Source: Antarctobacter aquimaris (GTDB taxonomy: Bacteria > Pseudomonadota > Alphaproteobacteria > Rhodobacterales > Rhodobacteraceae). From it: a stretch of 64,000 bases of DNA. Position 1 is the first letter of the stretch, and each line of letters starts with the position of its first letter. Positions 2,841 through 62,079 of this stretch are shown piece by piece. A model generated the notes under the pieces. It was not told the DNA's origin. It did not search any database and was given only the letters and a program-made list of their open reading frames with translations. The stretch is from assembly GCF_900184945.1 (NCBI RefSeq), contig NZ_FXYF01000006.1:1-64000 (forward strand), written 5' to 3'. The position numbers and the translations under genes are program-made.

Positions 2841-3350
2841 TCAGCCAAGCGGCCGCACCATGAACACGGTCGGAAAAACGATCCCACCCGGAAGGGGCAC
2901 CGCCATGTCGCCTTGCGCGACAAACCCCATCGCCCTGTAGAAGGGCACGGCCGTCAGGGTGCTCTGGCAATGCATCCGCGCCATGCCGCTGTCCTCGGCC
3001 ACGCGCAGGATATGCTCCAGCAACAGCCGCCCGACCCCGCGCCGGGTGGCGTCGGGATCGGTGGCGACGTGGCGGATGTGGCCGATCCCGGGCTGCGCAG
3101 GCCGCCGCCCCGGCGCCCCCAGCGACCAGCCCCCCGCGCCCAGCACGCGCTGTTCAGAGTCCTCGACCACGTAGAACAGGCCGGACGCCAAGAGGTCGGG
3201 CTGCGCCCGGGCGATGGCCGGGACCGCGGTGACCAGCGTCGAAGGAGGATAGTCTGCTGCCAGCAACCGAGAGTAGCTGCGCCGGAACAGCCGGTCGAGC
3301 GCGGTGATGTCGGATTGCCGAGCGGTGCGGAGTAAGATGCCTGCGGTCAT
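2841..3350 (-). CDS. GNAT family N-acetyltransferase
   Basis: The product is 169 residues from the ATG at 3350; a longer frame to 3449 lacks protein-like character. The GNAT fold shows as the beta4 segment IGHIRHVATDPDATRRGVGRLLLEHIL (acetyl-CoA pyrophosphate loop R-R-G-V-G-R, about 95-112), followed by a C-terminal substrate segment AVPFYRAMGF. GNAT enzymes transfer acetyl from acetyl-CoA to an amine; the substrate is unknown. It is convergent with the cupin gene. Confidence 0.87.
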   Translation of the reverse strand: MTAGILLRTARQSDITALDRLFRRSYSRLLAADYPPSTLVTAVPAIARAQPDLLASGLFYVVEDSEQRVLGAGGWSLGAPGRRPAQPGIGHIRHVATDPDATRRGVGRLLLEHILRVAEDSGMARMHCQSTLTAVPFYRAMGFVAQGDMAVPLPGGIVFPTVFMVRPLG

Positions 3351-3678: not shown

Positions 3679-3784
3679 TTGTCGTCTCCTGCAACGCGAG
3701 GCGACCCCCCGCGTGAAATCGGTGTGAGGCCCGCCTTTTACCTCAGTCCGGCCCCGAGTCAACACGGGAAACCGGCAAAAGAGT

Positions 3785-4170
3785 TGCGCGGAAGGCCTGT
3801 AAGCCGGATTCTGGTCTTGGCCGGGTCGCCCCGGCCTCAGACGGCCATTCCTCTGGGCCGCGCGTTGCCGCGTGGCTCTAGCTGCCAACCCGGATCGCTC
3901 GGGCGGAAGCGGCCCTGCGCCCGGAGGCGCGCGTGATCCCTATTCGGCATTGCTCCCGGTGGGGCTTGCCATGCGGGTCCTGTTGCCAGTCCCCCGGTGG
4001 GCTCTTACCCCACCGTTTCACCCTTGCCGCGCCCGAAGGCGTGGCGGTCTGTTCTCTGTGGCGCTGTCCGTCAGGTTGCCCTGCCCGGGAGTTACCCGGC
4101 ACCGGTGCTTCGGTGAGTCCGGACTTTCCTCTCGCATCGCTGCAAGCGGCCGTCCGGCCTTCCGCGCCCG
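3785..4170 (-). ncRNA. rnpB: RNase P RNA (class A)
   Basis: On the minus strand the sequence begins with GCGCGGAAGGCCGGACGGCC, has the universally conserved AGGAAAGTCCGGACTC segment shortly after, and ends with AATCCGGCTTACAGGCCTTCCGCGC. The two ends pair through GCGCGGAAGG / CCTTCCGCGC to form helix P1. The length of about 386 bases is normal for an alphaproteobacterial class A RNA. RNase P cleaves 5' leaders from pre-tRNAs. Ends are placed from the P1 pairing and could be off by a few bases. Confidence 0.95.
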
Positions 4171-4231
4171 CCCGACATAGGCGGTGAAGGCGGGACGGTC
4201 AATGGCGTGCGCGCCGCGATCGGTGCGCGGC

Positions 4232-4275
4232 CAAGCGCGTTGCAACGCGCTTGCAAGGATTTTGCAAAATCCTTG
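4232..4275. repeat. Two adjacent 22-bp perfect palindromes
   Basis: Two perfect palindromes stand side by side with no gap: one with core GCGTTGCAACGC (4232-4253) and one with core ATTTTGCAAAAT (4254-4275). Both are flanked by CAAG/CTTG. They sit just after the stop codon of the alpha/beta-hydrolase gene (minus strand), and three similar clusters occur later in the window (31924, 41463, 44412). As RNA each would form a hairpin. A terminator or RNA-stabilising role is inferred. Confidence 0.75.
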
Positions 4276-4291
4276 GCCCCGGCCTTGCCGT

Positions 4292-5002
4292 TCAGCGCAA
4301 GAGCAGCGGCTGCCCCAGCCAGTCGCGCAGCGCCGTGGTGACTTCTTCGGGGCGTTCCAGCACCGGCAGGTGACCCGCGTCCTCGATCACCGTCAGCGTC
4401 GCCTTGGGGATCATCTCGGCCATGAAGGCGTGGCGTTTGACCGGGCAGAGCGTGTCCCCGGCGCCGCACAGCACCAGTGTCGGCACGCCGATGCGCCGCA
4501 GCGTGCCCTGCTGGTCGCGCCGCCGCTGCAACGCGCGCACCTGGCGGATGTAGGACTCGACCCCCAGCCCCAGCGCCATCTCGGCCACCAGCTCCAGCAC
4601 CTCCTTGCGCTGCGGGCCGGGGGCGAGGCAGGAACTGGGGAATTCCTCGGCCAGCACCTCGCGCAGGCGGCCCATGCGGGCGCGGATGATCCGCGGGTCG
4701 CGCAGCGCCGCCGCCTGCGGGGTGTCGGCGCTGGAATGGGTGGCGATCAACGCCAGCCGTGTCACCCGGTCCGGTGCGCGGCGGAACAGTTCCAGCGCCA
4801 CAATCCCGCCAAAGCCCAACCCTGCCAGCGCAAAGCGCCGCGGCGCCATGTCGAGCACGTTCGAGGCGATCTCCTCGATCCGCTCGCCCTGCGACACGGG
4901 CGCCGCCATGACCGCGTGGTCACGCGACAGATCGGCGATCTGCGGACCAAAGAGGCGGGCGTCGCACATCATCTCGGGCAGGAAGACGACGGTTTCGGGC
5001 AT
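4292..5002 (-). CDS. Alpha/beta-hydrolase fold protein lacking the nucleophile serine
   Basis: The 236-residue protein has the alpha/beta-hydrolase pattern: an N-terminal FLPEMMCDARLFGPQ oxyanion region, an acid in LCGAGDTLCP (about 179-188) and a His in DAGHLPVLERPEEV (about 213-226). The nucleophile elbow reads GLGFGG (residues 61-66), with glycine at position 63 where GxSxG serine is expected. The DNA reads GGGTTGGGCTTTGGCGGG, so this is not a translation error. The protein may be a non-hydrolytic family member or use another mechanism. Paired palindromes lie at its 3' end. Confidence 0.85.
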   Translation of the reverse strand: MPETVVFLPEMMCDARLFGPQIADLSRDHAVMAAPVSQGERIEEIASNVLDMAPRRFALAGLGFGGIVALELFRRAPDRVTRLALIATHSSADTPQAAALRDPRIIRARMGRLREVLAEEFPSSCLAPGPQRKEVLELVAEMALGLGVESYIRQVRALQRRRDQQGTLRRIGVPTLVLCGAGDTLCPVKRHAFMAEMIPKATLTVIEDAGHLPVLERPEEVTTALRDWLGQPLLLR

Positions 5003-5186
5003 TCAGGCGATGGTCTCGATTGAATGCAGCCTGCCGTGGCCGCTTCTGGCTGTGATGCTGCTCACCCTTTTGCCCCTGTCAGGTCGCGATTGGGCGCACC
5101 CTAACAGACCGGGCAGCGGTTGAAAGAGAGGCACGGCGGCACGGAAGAAACCCGCCCTGCGGCGTTTGACCCGGTCGCGCGGCATG

Positions 5187-5810
5187 TCAGGCGTCATCGG
5201 TGGCCGCAAGGCCCTTGTCGGCGACAGGGCGGCGGGCCAGCAGGAGAGAGTGACCCCGGCAGGACGGGTCTTCGGGCACGTATGCCTCGACCGGCGCGCC
5301 GGCCGCCGCCAGCAGCGCGGCGTAGTCCTCGGGGGCAAGCGAGGCGTGGTAGACCGCTTCGCCTTCCACCTGGCCCCAGGCTTCGCCCGCAGAAGGCCCG
5401 ACGGTCAGCAGCAGTCGTCCGCCGGGGGCGAGGTGGCGCGCGATCCGCGGCAAGGTCCGGCGCTGGTCGCGCGCATCAAGATGAAAGAAGCTGCCCCAGC
5501 CGACGATGGCATCGAAGCGCGCGTCCAACGCCAAGTCGCGCATGTCCGCCAGAACGACACAGGCCTCTGGCACGTGGCGGGCATAAAGGTCCAGCATGGC
5601 CGGGGCGGCATCGACGCCCGTCACCGCGTAGCCCTGCGCCGCGAGATACGCACCGATGGGCCGTCCCGAGCCGCAGCCGAGGTCCAGCACCTTGCCGCCC
5701 GGCGGGACATCAGCCAGCAGCCGGTCGAGCCAGGGTTTTTCGAACAGACTCTGGTCGCGCGACCGGTCATACCCCTCGGCAACGCGCTGGTAGACCTCGA
5801 TCGTGCTCAC
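5187..5810 (-). CDS. Class I SAM-dependent methyltransferase
   Basis: The 207-residue protein has SAM motif I as VLDLGCGSGRPIGAYLA (about 41-57), motif II acid in VTGVDAAPAML, motif III in FDAIVGWGSFFHL and motif IV in LAPGGRLLLTVG. It resembles small ubiquinone/tellurite-type methyltransferases; the substrate is not known. The GTG start at 5810 overlaps the stop of the upstream NTF2-fold gene (GTGA), so the two are translationally coupled. A longer upstream frame in the same phase has no coding character. Confidence 0.88.
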   Translation of the reverse strand: MSTIEVYQRVAEGYDRSRDQSLFEKPWLDRLLADVPPGGKVLDLGCGSGRPIGAYLAAQGYAVTGVDAAPAMLDLYARHVPEACVVLADMRDLALDARFDAIVGWGSFFHLDARDQRRTLPRIARHLAPGGRLLLTVGPSAGEAWGQVEGEAVYHASLAPEDYAALLAAAGAPVEAYVPEDPSCRGHSLLLARRPVADKGLAATDDA

Positions 5811-15067: not shown

Positions 15068-15101
15068 AAGGGCCGCGTCCTGCCGGGCGCGGCCCTTTTT
15101 T
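15068..15101 (+). terminator. Rho-independent terminator of thrS
   Basis: A 10-base-pair stem (AAGGGCCGCG / CGCGGCCCTT) with a 10-base loop is followed by six T residues, 20 bases after the thrS stop. Confidence 0.92.
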
Positions 15102-15423
15102 CATGCGCGCCCGGTGCCCCGGCCGCTGTCACATTTCGTGATCGGTGCGCCGCCGTCGTGCGCGCGCCGCGTGGCGGCTGAAACATTCTGCCCTGCAGCA
15201 TGGTGAATTCGGCGGGTTTCGTTACATCGACCGCCGGGAAATCGTCCCGGGTCAGGCTTTCCGGACCTTGAAACTTCACGGCATCGACACGGGGCCGCAC
15301 GGCCGCGTGATGCACGGGCCCGTGAGTCGCTTGTGGCACGGCGGGCCTGCACTCTGTGTCTACCGGATGGCCTGGACGCCACCGGCCAAGTTTCACAACA
15401 CCCAGTCCCTGAAAGGAACTCAC
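15102..15423 (+). promoter_or_regulatory. Non-coding region upstream of the bufferin operon
   Basis: No convincing gene was found in these 322 bases. The segment must carry the promoter of the DUF2282 operon. TGAAAC hexamers at 15179 and 15269 and a GTTACA at 15221 look like extracytoplasmic-function sigma -35 elements, but none has a matching -10 at the right distance. GAAAGGAACTCAC at the 3' end is the ribosome site for bufA. Confidence 0.35.
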
Positions 15424-15723
15424 ATGTCCTCCAAGATCAAGACCGCCGCTCTCGTTGGTATCGTCGCCGCCGCCGTTGCCGCCACGGGCGCGCATGCCGC
15501 CGACCAGGAAAAGTGCTTTGGCGTCTCGCTTGCCGGCGAGAACGACTGCGCCGCCGGTCCCGGCACCACCTGCGCCGGCACCTCGAAGGTCGACTACCAG
15601 GGCAACGCCTGGACGCTGGTCGACGCCGGCACCTGCGCCGAGATCGAACTGCCCGCCATGGCGGACGGCAGCGCGCGCATGGGGTCGCTCGAGGCGCTCG
15701 AGCGCGACCTGCCCCAGATGTGA
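15424..15723 (+). CDS. bufA: DUF2282 family bufferin precursor (BufA1-like RiPP metallophore)
   Basis: The 99-residue protein has a signal peptide (about 1-25, cleavage after GAHA) followed by four cysteines at 31, 42, 50 and 71 in [18 protein letters not shown] and [10 protein letters not shown] contexts. This is the DUF2282 pattern of the copper-sequestering bufferins, whose cysteines are modified by MNIO enzymes and which act in the periplasm. The MNIO enzyme, DUF2063 partner and DoxX protein follow in order, which makes the assignment firm at family level. A hairpin separates it from bufB, consistent with a higher yield of precursor. Confidence 0.9.
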
Positions 15724-15729
15724 CATGAC

Positions 15730-15764
15730 CCGGTCGGGGCGGGCCTTGCGCCTGCCCCTTCCGG
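15730..15764 (+). terminator. Stem-loop between precursor gene and maturation genes (possible attenuator)
   Basis: GGGGCGGG pairs with CCTGCCCC (one G-U pair) around CCTTGCG, extended outward by CCGG/CCGG. Only a TT follows, so it is a weak terminator or an mRNA-stabilising hairpin. It lies seven bases after the bufA stop and could raise the precursor-to-enzyme ratio. Confidence 0.55.
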
Positions 15765-15825
15765 CCTCCCCTCTCTCAGGACCGATCCGCCGCCCGCCCC
15801 ACGCCGCAACCCGACGAGGCCTCCC

Positions 15826-16674
15826 ATGTTCGACACCGCCAGGTCCCTGCCGCCGATGCCCGGAGTCGGCTACAAGCCGCAGCATTTCAAGGCGATCCTC
15901 GAGGATGCGGCCCCGGTCGGCTGGCTGGAGGTGCATGCCGAGAACTACATGGGCGAAGGCGGCCGCCCGCTGGCGCAGTTGCGCGCCCTGTCCGAGCGGT
16001 TTCCGATCTCCGTGCACGGCGTCGGCCTGTCGATCGGCGGCCCCGAGCCGCTGGATACAGACCACCTCGCCCGGCTGAAGCACCTTGTCGGCTGGCTCGA
16101 CCCGGCCAGCTTTTCCGAACACCTGGCCTGGTCGACCCATGACGGCCATTTCCTGAACGACCTGCTGCCCCTGCCCTATACCCCGGCCACGCTGGGCCGC
16201 GTCGCCTGCCACATCGACCAGGTACAGGAGGCGCTGGGGCGGCGGATGCTGCTGGAGAACCCTTCGTCCTACCTGGCTTTTGCCGAAAGCACGCTGGAAG
16301 AGACCGAGTTCCTGCACGAACTGACCCGCCGCACCGGCTGCGGCCTGCTGCTGGACGTCAACAACGTCTTCGTCTCGGCCACCAACCTTGGCTATTCCCC
16401 GCAGGACTACATCGCGCGGTTCCCGCTGGAGGCGGTGGGCGAGCTGCACATCGCCGGCCACGACGAGGATCAGGACGATTTCGGTGCGCCGCTGCTGATC
16501 GACAGCCATGGCCGCGAGACGGCCGAGCCGGTCTGGACGCTGCTCGATCTCGTGCTGTCGCGCGCAGGTGCGCTGCCCGTTCTGATCGAATGGGACACCG
16601 ACGTGCCGGACTGGCCGGTGCTGGCCGCCGAGGCGGCGCGGGCCGCGACGGCGCTGGCCCGGGTGCCGGCATGA
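15826..16674 (+). CDS. bufB: MNIO (DUF692) family multinuclear iron oxidative enzyme
   Basis: The 282-residue TIM-barrel protein shows the iron-ligand pattern of MNIO enzymes: [12 protein letters not shown] (about 33-44), [65 protein letters not shown] and [10 protein letters not shown]. Relatives modify cysteines of RiPP precursors, for example to oxazolone/thioamide in methanobactin (MbnB) or thiooxazole in bufferins. The substrate is probably the neighbouring DUF2282 protein. It overlaps the partner gene bufC by four bases (ATGA). Confidence 0.94.
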
Positions 16675-17522
16675 GCGGACGGGTCCCGGTGTTGGGGGCG
16701 CTGCCCCCGTCGCCTGCGGCGACTCCGCCGGGATGTTTTCCGCCAGAAGAAACCCTGCGCGCGGGCACAGGTGACATAGCAAGCGCCACGGAAACAGCGT
16801 TGCGCGCCGGGCTGCTGGATGCCGTAGTCCCGGTTCCCGAGGGGCTGACCGATGGCGCGGGACGCCCGGCGGGGCGAAGATATTCGGTCTATCGCAACAA
16901 CGTGGCGGTGGCCCTGCACGAGGCGCTGGAGGCCGGGTTTCCGGCGGTGGCGCGGCTGATCGGACCGGAGAACTTTTCTCGCGCGGCGGGGATCTACTTG
17001 CGCACAGAGCCACCCGCAACGCCGCTGATGATGCAGTATGGCGCGGGGTTTCCCGCATTTCTCGAAAGCATCGAAGCGCTGCGCCCGATCGGCTACCTGG
17101 GCGACGTGGCGCGGCTGGAGCTGGCCATGCGGCAAAGCTATCACGCCGCCGACGCGCCGGCGCTGGACCCTGTGCTGCTGGCCGGCCTGGACGAGGATGC
17201 CCTGCTGCGCGCGCGCCTGCGCCTCGCGCCTGCGACCCGGGTGCTGCGCTCGGCCTGGCCGGTGCTGTCGGTCTACCGCTACACGCTGGAGCCGGGCAGC
17301 CCCAAGCCGACTGCCCGCGCCGAGGAGGTGGTGATCACCCGACCCGGCCTCGACCCGCAGCCGCACCTGCTGCCGCCGGGCGGCGCGGATTTCCTGGCCG
17401 CCCTCGACGCGGGGGCCGCCTTTGGCGCGGCGCTGGAGCGGGCCGGCACGGATTTCGACCTGGGCGCCACGCTGCCCCTGCTGTTGCAGCAGGGCGCCTT
17501 TACCGACCTATTGACCGAGTGA
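16671..17522 (+). CDS. bufC: DUF2063 family MNIO partner protein with a repeat-derived N-terminal insert
   Basis: The 283-residue protein has the DUF2063 N-terminal domain recognisable by [23 protein letters not shown] (about 66-88), followed by [17 protein letters not shown] and a C-terminal domain. Relatives bind the RiPP precursor and present it to the MNIO enzyme. The start overlaps bufB by four bases. Residues about 8-27 ([15 protein letters not shown] and following) are encoded by a copy of the intergenic REP-like repeat (16694-16752) that has entered the reading frame between the start codon and the conserved domain. Other DUF2063 proteins normally begin near [11 protein letters not shown] (here about residue 40). 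Confidence 0.9.
16694..16752 (+). repeat. REP-like element embedded in the bufC coding sequence
   Basis: GGGGGCGCTGCCCCC, then GTCGCCTGCGGCGAC, then CCGGGATGTTTTCCGCCAG and AAGAAAC reproduce the intergenic element seen at 48491 and elsewhere. It is fully translated within bufC. Confidence 0.85.
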
Positions 17523-17533
17523 GGACCCCGACC

Positions 17534-18100
17534 ATGGACCGACTGCTATCCCTGCACCGCGCGCTGTTTGCCCCTGTCGAGCGGCTGGGCGACGCGCTGA
17601 TCCCCCTGCTCACCCGGTTGGTCTTTGCCGCGACGCTGTTGGGGTATTACTGGGCCTCCGCCGGCACCAAGGTCTGGGACCGCAAGGGAGAGGAAGGGCT
17701 GTTCGACGTCTTCACGCTGGAATCCGGGGTCTATGCGCAGATGTTCCCCAAGGCCTTCGAGGCGGCGAGCTACAACACCGACAACCTCGGCTTTGTCTAT
17801 GACCTGGTGGCCTATGCCGGGACGGTGGCGGAATGGCTGCTGCCGCTGCTGATCCTGCTGGGGCTGTTCACCCGCCTCGCAGCGCTGGGCATGATCGGCT
17901 TTGTCACCGTGCAGACCCTGGTCGACATGACCGGCCATGGCGCGGACCCGGGCGCGCTGTTCGATGCGCGCTACGGGCTGATCGACGAACGCACGCTCTG
18001 GATCTTTGCCCTGCTGTTGCTGGTGATCCGGGGGGCGGGCGCGCTGTCCATCGACAGGCTGCTGGGGCTGAACCCGCCGGCGCGGCCAGTCGCGGCCTGA
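17534..18100 (+). CDS. bufD: DoxX family membrane protein of the bufferin operon
   Basis: The protein is 188 residues from the ATG at 17534, preceded by GAGG. A GTG at 17519 overlapping the bufC stop is an alternative start adding five residues. It has four predicted membrane helices (about 20-40, 85-105, 110-130 and 155-175) with a periplasmic segment after helix 1, the DoxX layout. DoxX proteins accompany bufferin and other redox or metal operons; the exact role is not settled. It completes a bufABCD-like operon on one strand. Confidence 0.85.
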   Translation: MDRLLSLHRALFAPVERLGDALIPLLTRLVFAATLLGYYWASAGTKVWDRKGEEGLFDVFTLESGVYAQMFPKAFEAASYNTDNLGFVYDLVAYAGTVAEWLLPLLILLGLFTRLAALGMIGFVTVQTLVDMTGHGADPGALFDARYGLIDERTLWIFALLLLVIRGAGALSIDRLLGLNPPARPVAA

Positions 18101-24749: not shown

Positions 24750-26850
24750 CTTCTTCTCCCTTGTCTTCGATTGTTCGCAAGCGGATCAGCGCATCCACCG
24801 CAACCGCGCGCCCGGGCGCGCAGAGCAGCGGGTTGACCTCGACTTCCTCGACCTGCGCGGCATGGTCGGTGACAAACCCCTGCACCGCAAGCACAGCCTG
24901 CACGATCGCTTCCATATCCGCCGCGGCCGCGCCGCGATACCCCGACAGCAGAGGCGCGATGCGCAGCCGGGCCAGCGCCTGGCGCAGGTCCTCATCCGTC
25001 ACCGGCAGCATCAGCGTCACTGTGTCCTGAAGGATCTCGGTCCAGACCCCGCCCGCCCCCAGCGTCAGCACGAATCCATGCGCCGGGTCGCGCAGCACGC
25101 CCACCAGCAGTTCCGCCACCGCGCCAGTCACCATCTCCTCGACCAGATAGCCCCGCGCGCCCATGGCCTCTGCCGCGGCCAGAACCTCTGCCGCCGAGCC
25201 AAGGCCCAGCTTCACCGCCCCGGCCTCGCTCTTGTGGGCAAAGCCCTCACCCTTCAGCACCACCGGAAAGCCGATCCCGGCCGCCGCCTGCGCCGCCGCC
25301 TCCGGCGTGGCACAGCGCACAAGGCGCGGCACGACCAGCCCATGCGCCCGCAACAGCGCCTTGGCCTCGCCTTCCGCGACCACGCCCATGGCATCTTTGG
25401 TCCCGAAATATCCCGGGGGAGTTGCCGCAGGCGACGGGGGCAGCGCCCCCACCTTCTCCGCCACCAGCACCGGCAGCGGGGCAACCTCCTGCCCCAGGAA
25501 GGCCGCCGCTGCAACCGCCTCCAAGGCGGCGGGAATGTCGCACAGCGGCACGATCCCCAGATCGACCAGCCGTGCCGCCACGTCCTCGGGCAGCGTCTCC
25601 ACCAGGCTCGACAGCACCGCCAGGGGCGCCTCTGCCTGCACCCCCGCCATGGCCTCGATCACCGGGTCCCAGTCGGCCGCCGAACAGCGGTCGCCGCGCG
25701 GGAAATCCAGCACCACGATGCCGAGGCCGATGTCCTCGCCCGCCATCAGCCCGGCGAAACAGGCCCGCATCGCCGCGACATTGCCCCAGATATAGGTGTG
25801 GTAATCCAGCGGGTTGGCCAGCGCCACCCTGGGCCCCAGGGCCTCTCTCAAGGCCCCGCGCTGCGCCGCGACCAACGGAGGAAACACCACCGCGTGGCGC
25901 AGCGCCGAATCCGCCATCAGGCTTGCCTCGCCGCCAGAACATGACGCCGACACCAGCCGGCCCGACCGCAACGGCCCGGCCACATGCAGGATCTTCAGGG
26001 TCTCCAGCAAGGCGCCCAAGGACGATACCTGCGCGATCCCGATCCGCCGCAGGAAGGCGCGCGCGCCTGCGTCACTCCCGGTCAGCGAGGCGGTGTGCGA
26101 CACCGCCGCAGCGTTGGCCTGCTCCGACGCCCCCAGCTTCAGCGCCACGATCCGCTTGCCCAGCGCCCGCGCCCGCGCCGCCAGCGCCTCGAAGCCGCGC
26201 ACATCGCGGATGCCCTCGATATAGAGCCCCAGCGCTGTGATCCGCTCGTCCTCCAGCAGCGCCATGCCCAGCGCCGACAGGTCGACCTGCGCCTGGTTGC
26301 CGGCCGTGCCCACAAAGGCAATCGGCAGGCCGCGCCGCTGCATCGTCAGGTTCAACGCCACGTTCGAGCTTTGCGACAGGATCGCCACGCCGCGCGTCAC
26401 AGGCACCAGCCCATGCTGGTCCGGCCACAGGGCCACCCGCCCCAGCGCATTCAGGAAACCGTAACAGTTCGGCCCCAGCAGCGGCATATCGCCCGCCGAT
26501 GCCAGCAGGCGGTCCTGCAAGGCTCCGCCATCCGCCAGTTCCGCCTGCGCCTCGGCAAAACCCGAGGCAAAGCAGACTGCCCCCCCCGCACCACGCGCCG
26601 CCAGGGCAGCCACCGCCTCGATAGTCGCCTCTCGGTTGATGCCGATGAAACTCGCGTCCGGCGCCTCGGGCAGCGCCTCGATCGAGGCGAAGCACGGCGC
26701 GCCGCCGATCTCGGCGCGTGACGGGTGTACCGGCCAGACCGCGCCGTCAAACCCGAACTTTCGGCACTCGCGGATCACGTTTGCGCACCATGCGCCGCCC
26801 CCGATCACGGCGATGGAGCGTGGGTTCAGCAGGCGACCCAGCCGACTCAT
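24739..26850 (-). CDS. ADP-forming acyl-CoA ligase (CoA-binding plus ATP-grasp) with a repeat-derived linker
   Basis: The 703-residue protein has a CoA-binding domain (about 1-130, [20 protein letters not shown]), a succinyl-CoA-ligase-like domain with the phosphohistidine segment [21 protein letters not shown] (His near 254) and a C-terminal ATP-grasp domain (about 490-700, [19 protein letters not shown]). Relatives convert an acid, ATP and CoA to acyl-CoA, ADP and phosphate. Residues about 467-487 ([15 protein letters not shown] and following) are encoded by a REP-like intergenic repeat (25392-25450) located at the linker before the ATP-grasp domain. It lies between the acyl-CoA dehydrogenase and BKACE genes. 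Confidence 0.88.
25392..25450 (-). repeat. REP-like element embedded in the acyl-CoA ligase gene
   Basis: On the minus strand GGGGGCGCTGCCCCC, GTCGCCTGCGGCAAC, CCCCCGGGATATTTCGGG and ACCAAAGATG follow each other as in the intergenic copies. The segment is translated in frame. Confidence 0.85.
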
Positions 26851-31080: not shown

Positions 31081-31141
31081 TTCTTTGGTTTCAAAAATAC
31101 CTCGGGGGGAGTTGCGGCACGCAACGGGGGGCAGCGCCCCC
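31081..31141 (-). repeat. REP-like intergenic element
   Basis: TTCTTTGGTTTCAAAAATAC and CTCGGGGGGA, an inverted repeat (GTTGCGGCACGCAAC) and GGGGGGCAGCGCCCCCT follow in order. It shares this layout with copies at 45265, 48563, 55650 and 62015. It sits between the transketolase and SDR genes. Confidence 0.8.
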
Positions 31142-45264: not shown

Positions 45265-45322
45265 TCTTCTTTGGTTTTGAAAATACCTCGGGGGGGGCCG
45301 CAGGCGGGGGGCAGCGCCCCCC
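45265..45322 (-). repeat. REP-like intergenic element
   Basis: TCTTCTTTGGTTTTGAAAAT and ACCTCGGGGGGG, a shortened inverted repeat and GGGGGGCAGCGCCCCCC follow in order. The second hairpin is reduced compared with the 62015 copy. Confidence 0.75.
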
Positions 45323-48490: not shown

Positions 48491-48627
48491 GGGGGCGCTG
48501 CCCCCGTCGCCTGCGGCGACTCCCCCGGAGGTATTTGCGCAGAGAAGAAACACGGGCTTGCGCTTCTTCTTTGTGAAAATACTCCCGGGGTGAATGGTCC
48601 GCAGGACCAGAGGGGCAGCGCCCCTCG
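48491..48627. repeat. Two REP-like elements in face-to-face arrangement
   Basis: A forward copy (48491-48550, GGGGGCGCTGCCCCC ... CAGAGAAGAAAC) is followed 12 bases later by a reverse copy (48563-48627, CTTCTTCTTTGTGAAAATAC ... AGGGGCAGCGCCCCT). The pair can fold into one large stem and lies between convergent RraA and PhyH genes. Confidence 0.8.
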
Positions 48628-62014: not shown

Positions 62015-62079
62015 GCTTCTTTGGTTTGAAAAATACCTCGGGGGAGTCGGCCGCAGGCCGACGGGGGCAGCGCCCCCTC
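62015..62079 (-). repeat. REP-like intergenic element (full-length copy)
   Basis: CTTCTTTGGTTTGAAAAATA and CCTCGGGGGA, then GTCGGCCGCAGGCCGAC and GGGGGCAGCGCCCCCTC form a canonical copy in the gap between the amidohydrolase and the monooxygenase genes. Confidence 0.85.

Follow-up and report, generated by a model that had tools for sequence, protein, structure and literature searches.

The copper-binding bufferins form a large, recently described class of modified peptides; the catalogue of MNIO-PME1 loci exceeds 24,000 entries (PMC13097082). Bufferins carry 5-thiooxazole groups, and copper binding by the modified products has been described (PMC13097082). According to PMC13097082, which cites Leprevost et al., thiooxazoles were assigned in bufferin 1, and copper binding by DUF2282 products is ordered. 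The two central cysteines of Buf1 precursors carry the modification, the outer pair is disulphide-linked, and recognition involves the signal peptide (PMC12452194; for the signal peptide also PMC13419390). Our literature search found no modification or metal tests of a bufferin operon in the Roseobacter group, in agreement with the caution expressed in the initial annotation.

Here, we describe an operon at 15424-18100 of the window, i.e., the whole stretch of 64,000 nucleotides that was analysed. With high confidence, we assign it to the Buf1-type bufferins (captophorins), as a chromosomal operon from a member of the Roseobacteraceae near Mameliella; it would encode a copper-buffering peptide modified by BufBC, with transcription probably controlled via a palindrome. 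The operon is a fresh example of a known, recently published family; new here are a conserved palindromic site, which stands in for the sigma-factor switch best known from this family, and a repeat at the start of bufC.

Gene content, conservation and proposed function

The operon comprises four plus-strand open reading frames in a row, bufA-bufB-bufC-bufD, and, as given in the initial annotation, their products are DUF2282, MNIO, DUF2063 and DoxX proteins in that order, with all Pfam matches (DUF2282, MbnB_TglH_ChrH, DUF2063 and DoxX) above the curated cut-offs. The gene bufA (15424-15723) encodes the DUF2282 (Buf1) precursor of 99 amino acids (PF10048, 84.2 bits, cut-off 22.4, E-value 6e-24), bufB (15826-16674) an MNIO bufferin maturase of 282 amino acids (PF05114, E-value 3e-104), bufC (16671-17522) a DUF2063 partner (PME type 1) of 283 amino acids when read from ATG 16671 (PF09836, 75.5 bits, E-value 4e-21), and bufD (17534-18100) a DoxX-family membrane protein (PF07681, 25.9 bits, cut-off 23.6). 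The overlapping starts that had been claimed are present only between bufB and bufC, which share an ATGA (16671-16674), with the bufC start itself being uncertain. The genes bufA and bufB lie 102 nt apart (15724-15825), a spacer that may favour synthesis of precursor over that of enzyme, and bufD, whose reading frame is open from an overlapping GTG at 17519, probably starts at ATG 17534, which has TGAGGA upstream.

In a profile search of the window's genome, the DUF2282 and MNIO families gave one match each, and DUF2282 was present in 24 of 41 sampled genomes. Since the gene order bufA-bufB-bufC-bufD is kept in nearly all 48 annotated related loci, chance cannot account for the four-gene arrangement. 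Among the closer loci, the operon mostly stands between thrS and a block of ArsC-family and cold-shock genes, suggesting long vertical retention at that place. The neighbours (thrS, DUF4064, ArsC-family, cold-shock and MetR-like genes) are housekeeping genes and the context therefore gives no pointer to the metal. Also, in one locus (L031, genome G007; 3700-5530) a tandem pair of bufA copies was observed ahead of a single bufB, and an unrelated open reading frame of 340 codons, Hint-like by eye, lies there between thrS and bufA.

By eye, the N-terminus of BufA is of the Sec type, with a positively charged start (MSSKIK), a hydrophobic stretch and the motif AHA/AD, giving a putative signal peptide of about residues 1-25. 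Exactly four cysteines follow (C31, C42, C50 and C71), all of them invariant in 23 aligned precursors, and the segment around the central two is almost fixed. This bears out the earlier description of a four-cysteine precursor, probably with a signal peptide. By the rule that the central cysteines are modified (PMC12452194), modification is expected at C42 and C50. The BufA sequence contains no EGKCG repeat, and its AlphaFold model is poor (pLDDT 58.5) and uninformative on the disulphide.

BufB scored 372.7 bits on the NCBIfam equivalog NF050167 ('MNIO family bufferin maturase'; cut-off 310), matches 3BWW, and stayed below the NCBIfam cut-offs of HvfB (236.9 vs. 360 bits), MbnB, ApyH and ChrH. 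An oxazolin or methanobactin-type system was rejected on these NCBIfam cut-offs. Twelve residues are invariant among 21 BufB sequences (H64, E98, H99, E144, D177, N179, N180, H208, H212, D226, H228 and E255), as are the motifs around N180, D226 and H228. In HvfB, exchange of N175, D242 or H244 for alanine abolished activity (PMC13419390), and according to our own mapping via the close HvfB relative 3BWW, these residues appear to correspond to N180, D226 and H228 of BufB. For BufC, an AlphaFold model based on a 34-sequence alignment reached a mean pLDDT of 90; Foldseek matched it best to TglI (8hci, 8hi7), further to NGO1945 (3dee) and weakly to MbnC, all known partners of MNIO enzymes, and BufC stayed below the NCBIfam cut-off of HvfC (32 vs. 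142 bits). The bufferin-type assignment made at the outset is supported by the NF050167 score of BufB, the DUF2282 family being Buf1, and the predicted fold of BufC being that of the known MNIO partners.

By analogy with the published relatives, BufA would be made with a Sec signal peptide, and BufB together with BufC as recognition and cofactor-tuning subunit would oxidise C42 and C50 to 5-thiooxazoles before export. After export, a disulphide would form between C31 and C71, and the thiooxazole thiolates would bind periplasmic copper, thereby buffering excess metal under stress. BufD (DoxX), a membrane protein, may have some accessory role. That the modified peptide mainly targets another metal or stress (gold, cadmium, chromate, mercury, oxidants) instead of copper is conceivable, albeit unlikely: Legionella relatives respond to gold and copper (PMC5413113), Caulobacter relatives to chromate and cadmium (PMC3511200), DUF2282-MerC fusions exist (PMC12452194), and the operator described below is unlike the sigma-F promoter, so that the inducing signal may differ. 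However, the thiooxazoles of bufferin 1 and the ordered copper binding of DUF2282 products described in PMC13097082 (citing Leprevost et al.) argue for copper, as does the retention of the same four invariant cysteines in BufA.

The bufC start and the interspersed repeat

The 5′ end of bufC, at about residues 6-33, contains an interspersed palindromic repeat (16687-16768, plus strand). The DNA following the bufC ATG has at least 34 matches in the window's genome and 6-25 matches in each of five related genomes; further copies within the window are located at 25406-25451, 31105-31141, 45279-45321, 48491-48551 and 62030-62077. The repeat family is present in several related genera and lies mostly at gene boundaries, but in the window it lies inside the 5′ end of bufC. 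In a coding-potential test of fetched copies, which was coarse, the repeats appeared non-coding and were mostly positioned where the coding frame or strand changes. A literature search for comparable in-gene repeats returned no useful match.

Since the repeat makes up approximately the first 35 codons of bufC, the start of this gene is ambiguous, with ATG 16671, ATA 16773 and TTG 16800 as candidates. Read from ATG 16671, BufC has 283 amino acids vs. mostly 243-263 in relatives, in which the protein starts at or near the bufB stop, and the repeat would add about 35 predicted-disordered residues to its N-terminus; in the AlphaFold model, residues 1-33 are predicted to be disordered and helix 1 begins at residue 34. 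In Mameliella sp. MMSF_3455 (L055), about 100 nt lie between bufB and a new bufC ATG with a ribosome site (2956-3054), and the window has ATA at the position aligned to this ATG (GACATGACCAGC / GACATAGCAAGC). In another genome (G002; locus L027, 3978-4062), the bufB/bufC junction has a copy of the repeat on its bufB side, which adds a C-terminal tail to BufB. The history of the junction may be either one old insertion resolved in three ways or several hits on the junction. In Salipiger mucosus (L080, 2840-3013), an N-terminal BufC extension of about 55 residues with a duplicated segment was observed.

The position of the repeat exactly at the bufC start, the ATA in place of the Mameliella ATG, the folding of the repeat RNA into adjacent hairpins and the leucine that BufC carries at the nearly invariant F44 would all suit a decaying operon, in which the repeat destroyed the native bufC start, production of BufC is low and most BufA escapes modification. 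We consider this improbable, as bufC has an uninterrupted frame from ATG 16671 to its end, the catalytic and fold residues are retained, and the extension is a predicted disordered tail ahead of helix 1. Also, BufC is 74% identical to its Mameliella counterpart, matching its usual faster divergence in comparison to BufB, and the genome with the repeat on the bufB side of the junction retains all four genes. The repeat at the start and the exchange of F44 for leucine may nevertheless reduce BufC function. The bufB/bufC junction is an example of a short, dispersed palindrome altering protein termini within an operon with no obvious damage to it.

The control region upstream of bufA

An intrinsic terminator (15068-15101, plus strand; 13-pair stem with 10 G-C pairs, followed by a T run) separates thrS from the buf operon, and because of this strong terminator the operon requires its own promoter. 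The sequence upstream of bufA (CACGGCCGCGTGATGCACGGGCCCGTGAGTCGC) contains a putative operator at 15297-15330 (plus strand), 93 nt before bufA, which consists of the tandem palindromes CACGGCCGCGTG and CACGGGCCCGTG and an AGTCGC tail. The pattern was first seen in an alignment of 19 upstream regions and has the consensus TCACG-N4-CGTGA-N2-CACG-N4-CGTGA, to which the window site conforms at 21 of 22 positions vs. at most 17 in its own shuffles. Among 50 regions upstream of bufA, 37 reached a score of at least 17 of 22 (most 19-21; shuffle maxima 14-17), which are not 37 independent cases since the consensus was built partly from the scored set and many Marivita are included. In the BufB tree, most palindrome carriers fall into one large group and the label needs three changes. 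A genome scan identified the buf site as the only perfect palindrome site in the window's genome and in two others (G005, G020), and most of the other matches look like coding sequence by eye.

Five of the 50 regions have a sigma-F-type promoter (GTAAC and CGAA separated by the published 16 bases, with one mismatch) at a distance of 48-82 nt to bufA, and all five lack the palindrome. In four of the genomes concerned, NrsF lies next to the operon (G006, G010, G016 and G028); the fifth region is that of locus L061. The rest of the 50 regions contain neither element, and likewise neither the palindromic operator nor a sigma-F-type promoter was found upstream of the tandem bufA copies of L031. Sigma-F control was ruled out for the window's genome, in which no NrsF gene was found and for which the best match to the promoter GTAACC-N16-CGAA has four mismatches. 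A scan for the sigma-70 consensus gave no match.

Transcription would be expected to begin at the operon's own promoter, downstream of the thrS terminator and upstream of bufA, with a DNA-binding protein acting at the palindromic operator instead of sigma-F/NrsF. Changes in the palindrome are never compensatory (0 of 9 pairs), which fits a protein-bound DNA site, and the putative operator thus appears to behave as DNA rather than as an RNA hairpin. Although each inverted repeat could form a stem of 4-5 bp with a 4-base loop, an RNA element of two leader hairpins is very improbable and RNA hairpins or a riboswitch were rejected, as the compensatory changes were lacking across 30 sequences with every shuffle reaching the observed score, non-stem bases (GTGAGTGGC) are conserved too, and no Rfam family matched at threshold upstream of bufA.

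For the putative operator, no earlier description was found in the literature searched, to which subscription papers mostly did not belong. We see about an even chance that a near-dedicated transcription factor reading the tandem TCACG-N4-CGTGA operator has taken over from the sigma-F/NrsF switch of bufferin operons in many Roseobacteraceae and related bacteria. If so, the bufferin-inducing signal in these bacteria would differ from that of Caulobacter. The triggers of bufferins outside the sigma-F group are hardly known, and the conserved operator could serve as bait for the regulator and the sensed metal.

Comparison with known systems

The Buf1 operon of Caulobacter vibrioides (CC3254-CC3257, sigma-F regulon, bufferin 1) shares the order DUF2282-MNIO-DUF2063-DoxX with the operon of the window, and a four-cysteine precursor is common to both, the one in the window with a putative signal peptide. 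In contrast to C. vibrioides, the window's genome lacks NrsF and a sigma-F-type promoter and has the tandem palindrome instead, its bufC carries the repeat-derived N-terminal extension, and its operon adjoins thrS. The GIG (gold-induced genes) operon of Cupriavidus metallidurans and Legionella pneumophila, a bufferin cluster named in the literature, contains the same core genes. In Legionella it is located on an integrative element, whereas the window's operon has a conserved chromosomal context. Induction by gold or copper is a feature of GIG.

The oxazolin/HvfABC(X) and fontiphorin systems (captophorins with EGKCG repeats) likewise combine an MNIO enzyme with a DUF2063 partner and are alike in thiooxazole chemistry, with a DoxX-like protein present in Hvf. 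Their precursors differ from that of the window, which is a DUF2282 protein in place of one with EGKCG repeats, and BufB, BufC and BufD stay below the cut-offs of HvfB, HvfC and HvfX (25.6 vs. 80 bits for BufD on HvfX). In TglHI (pearlin) and MbnBC (methanobactin), an MNIO enzyme works with a structurally related partner, as in the window, whereas precursor and product differ, the partner in the window being a DUF2063 protein and the precursor bearing, by eye, a Sec signal.
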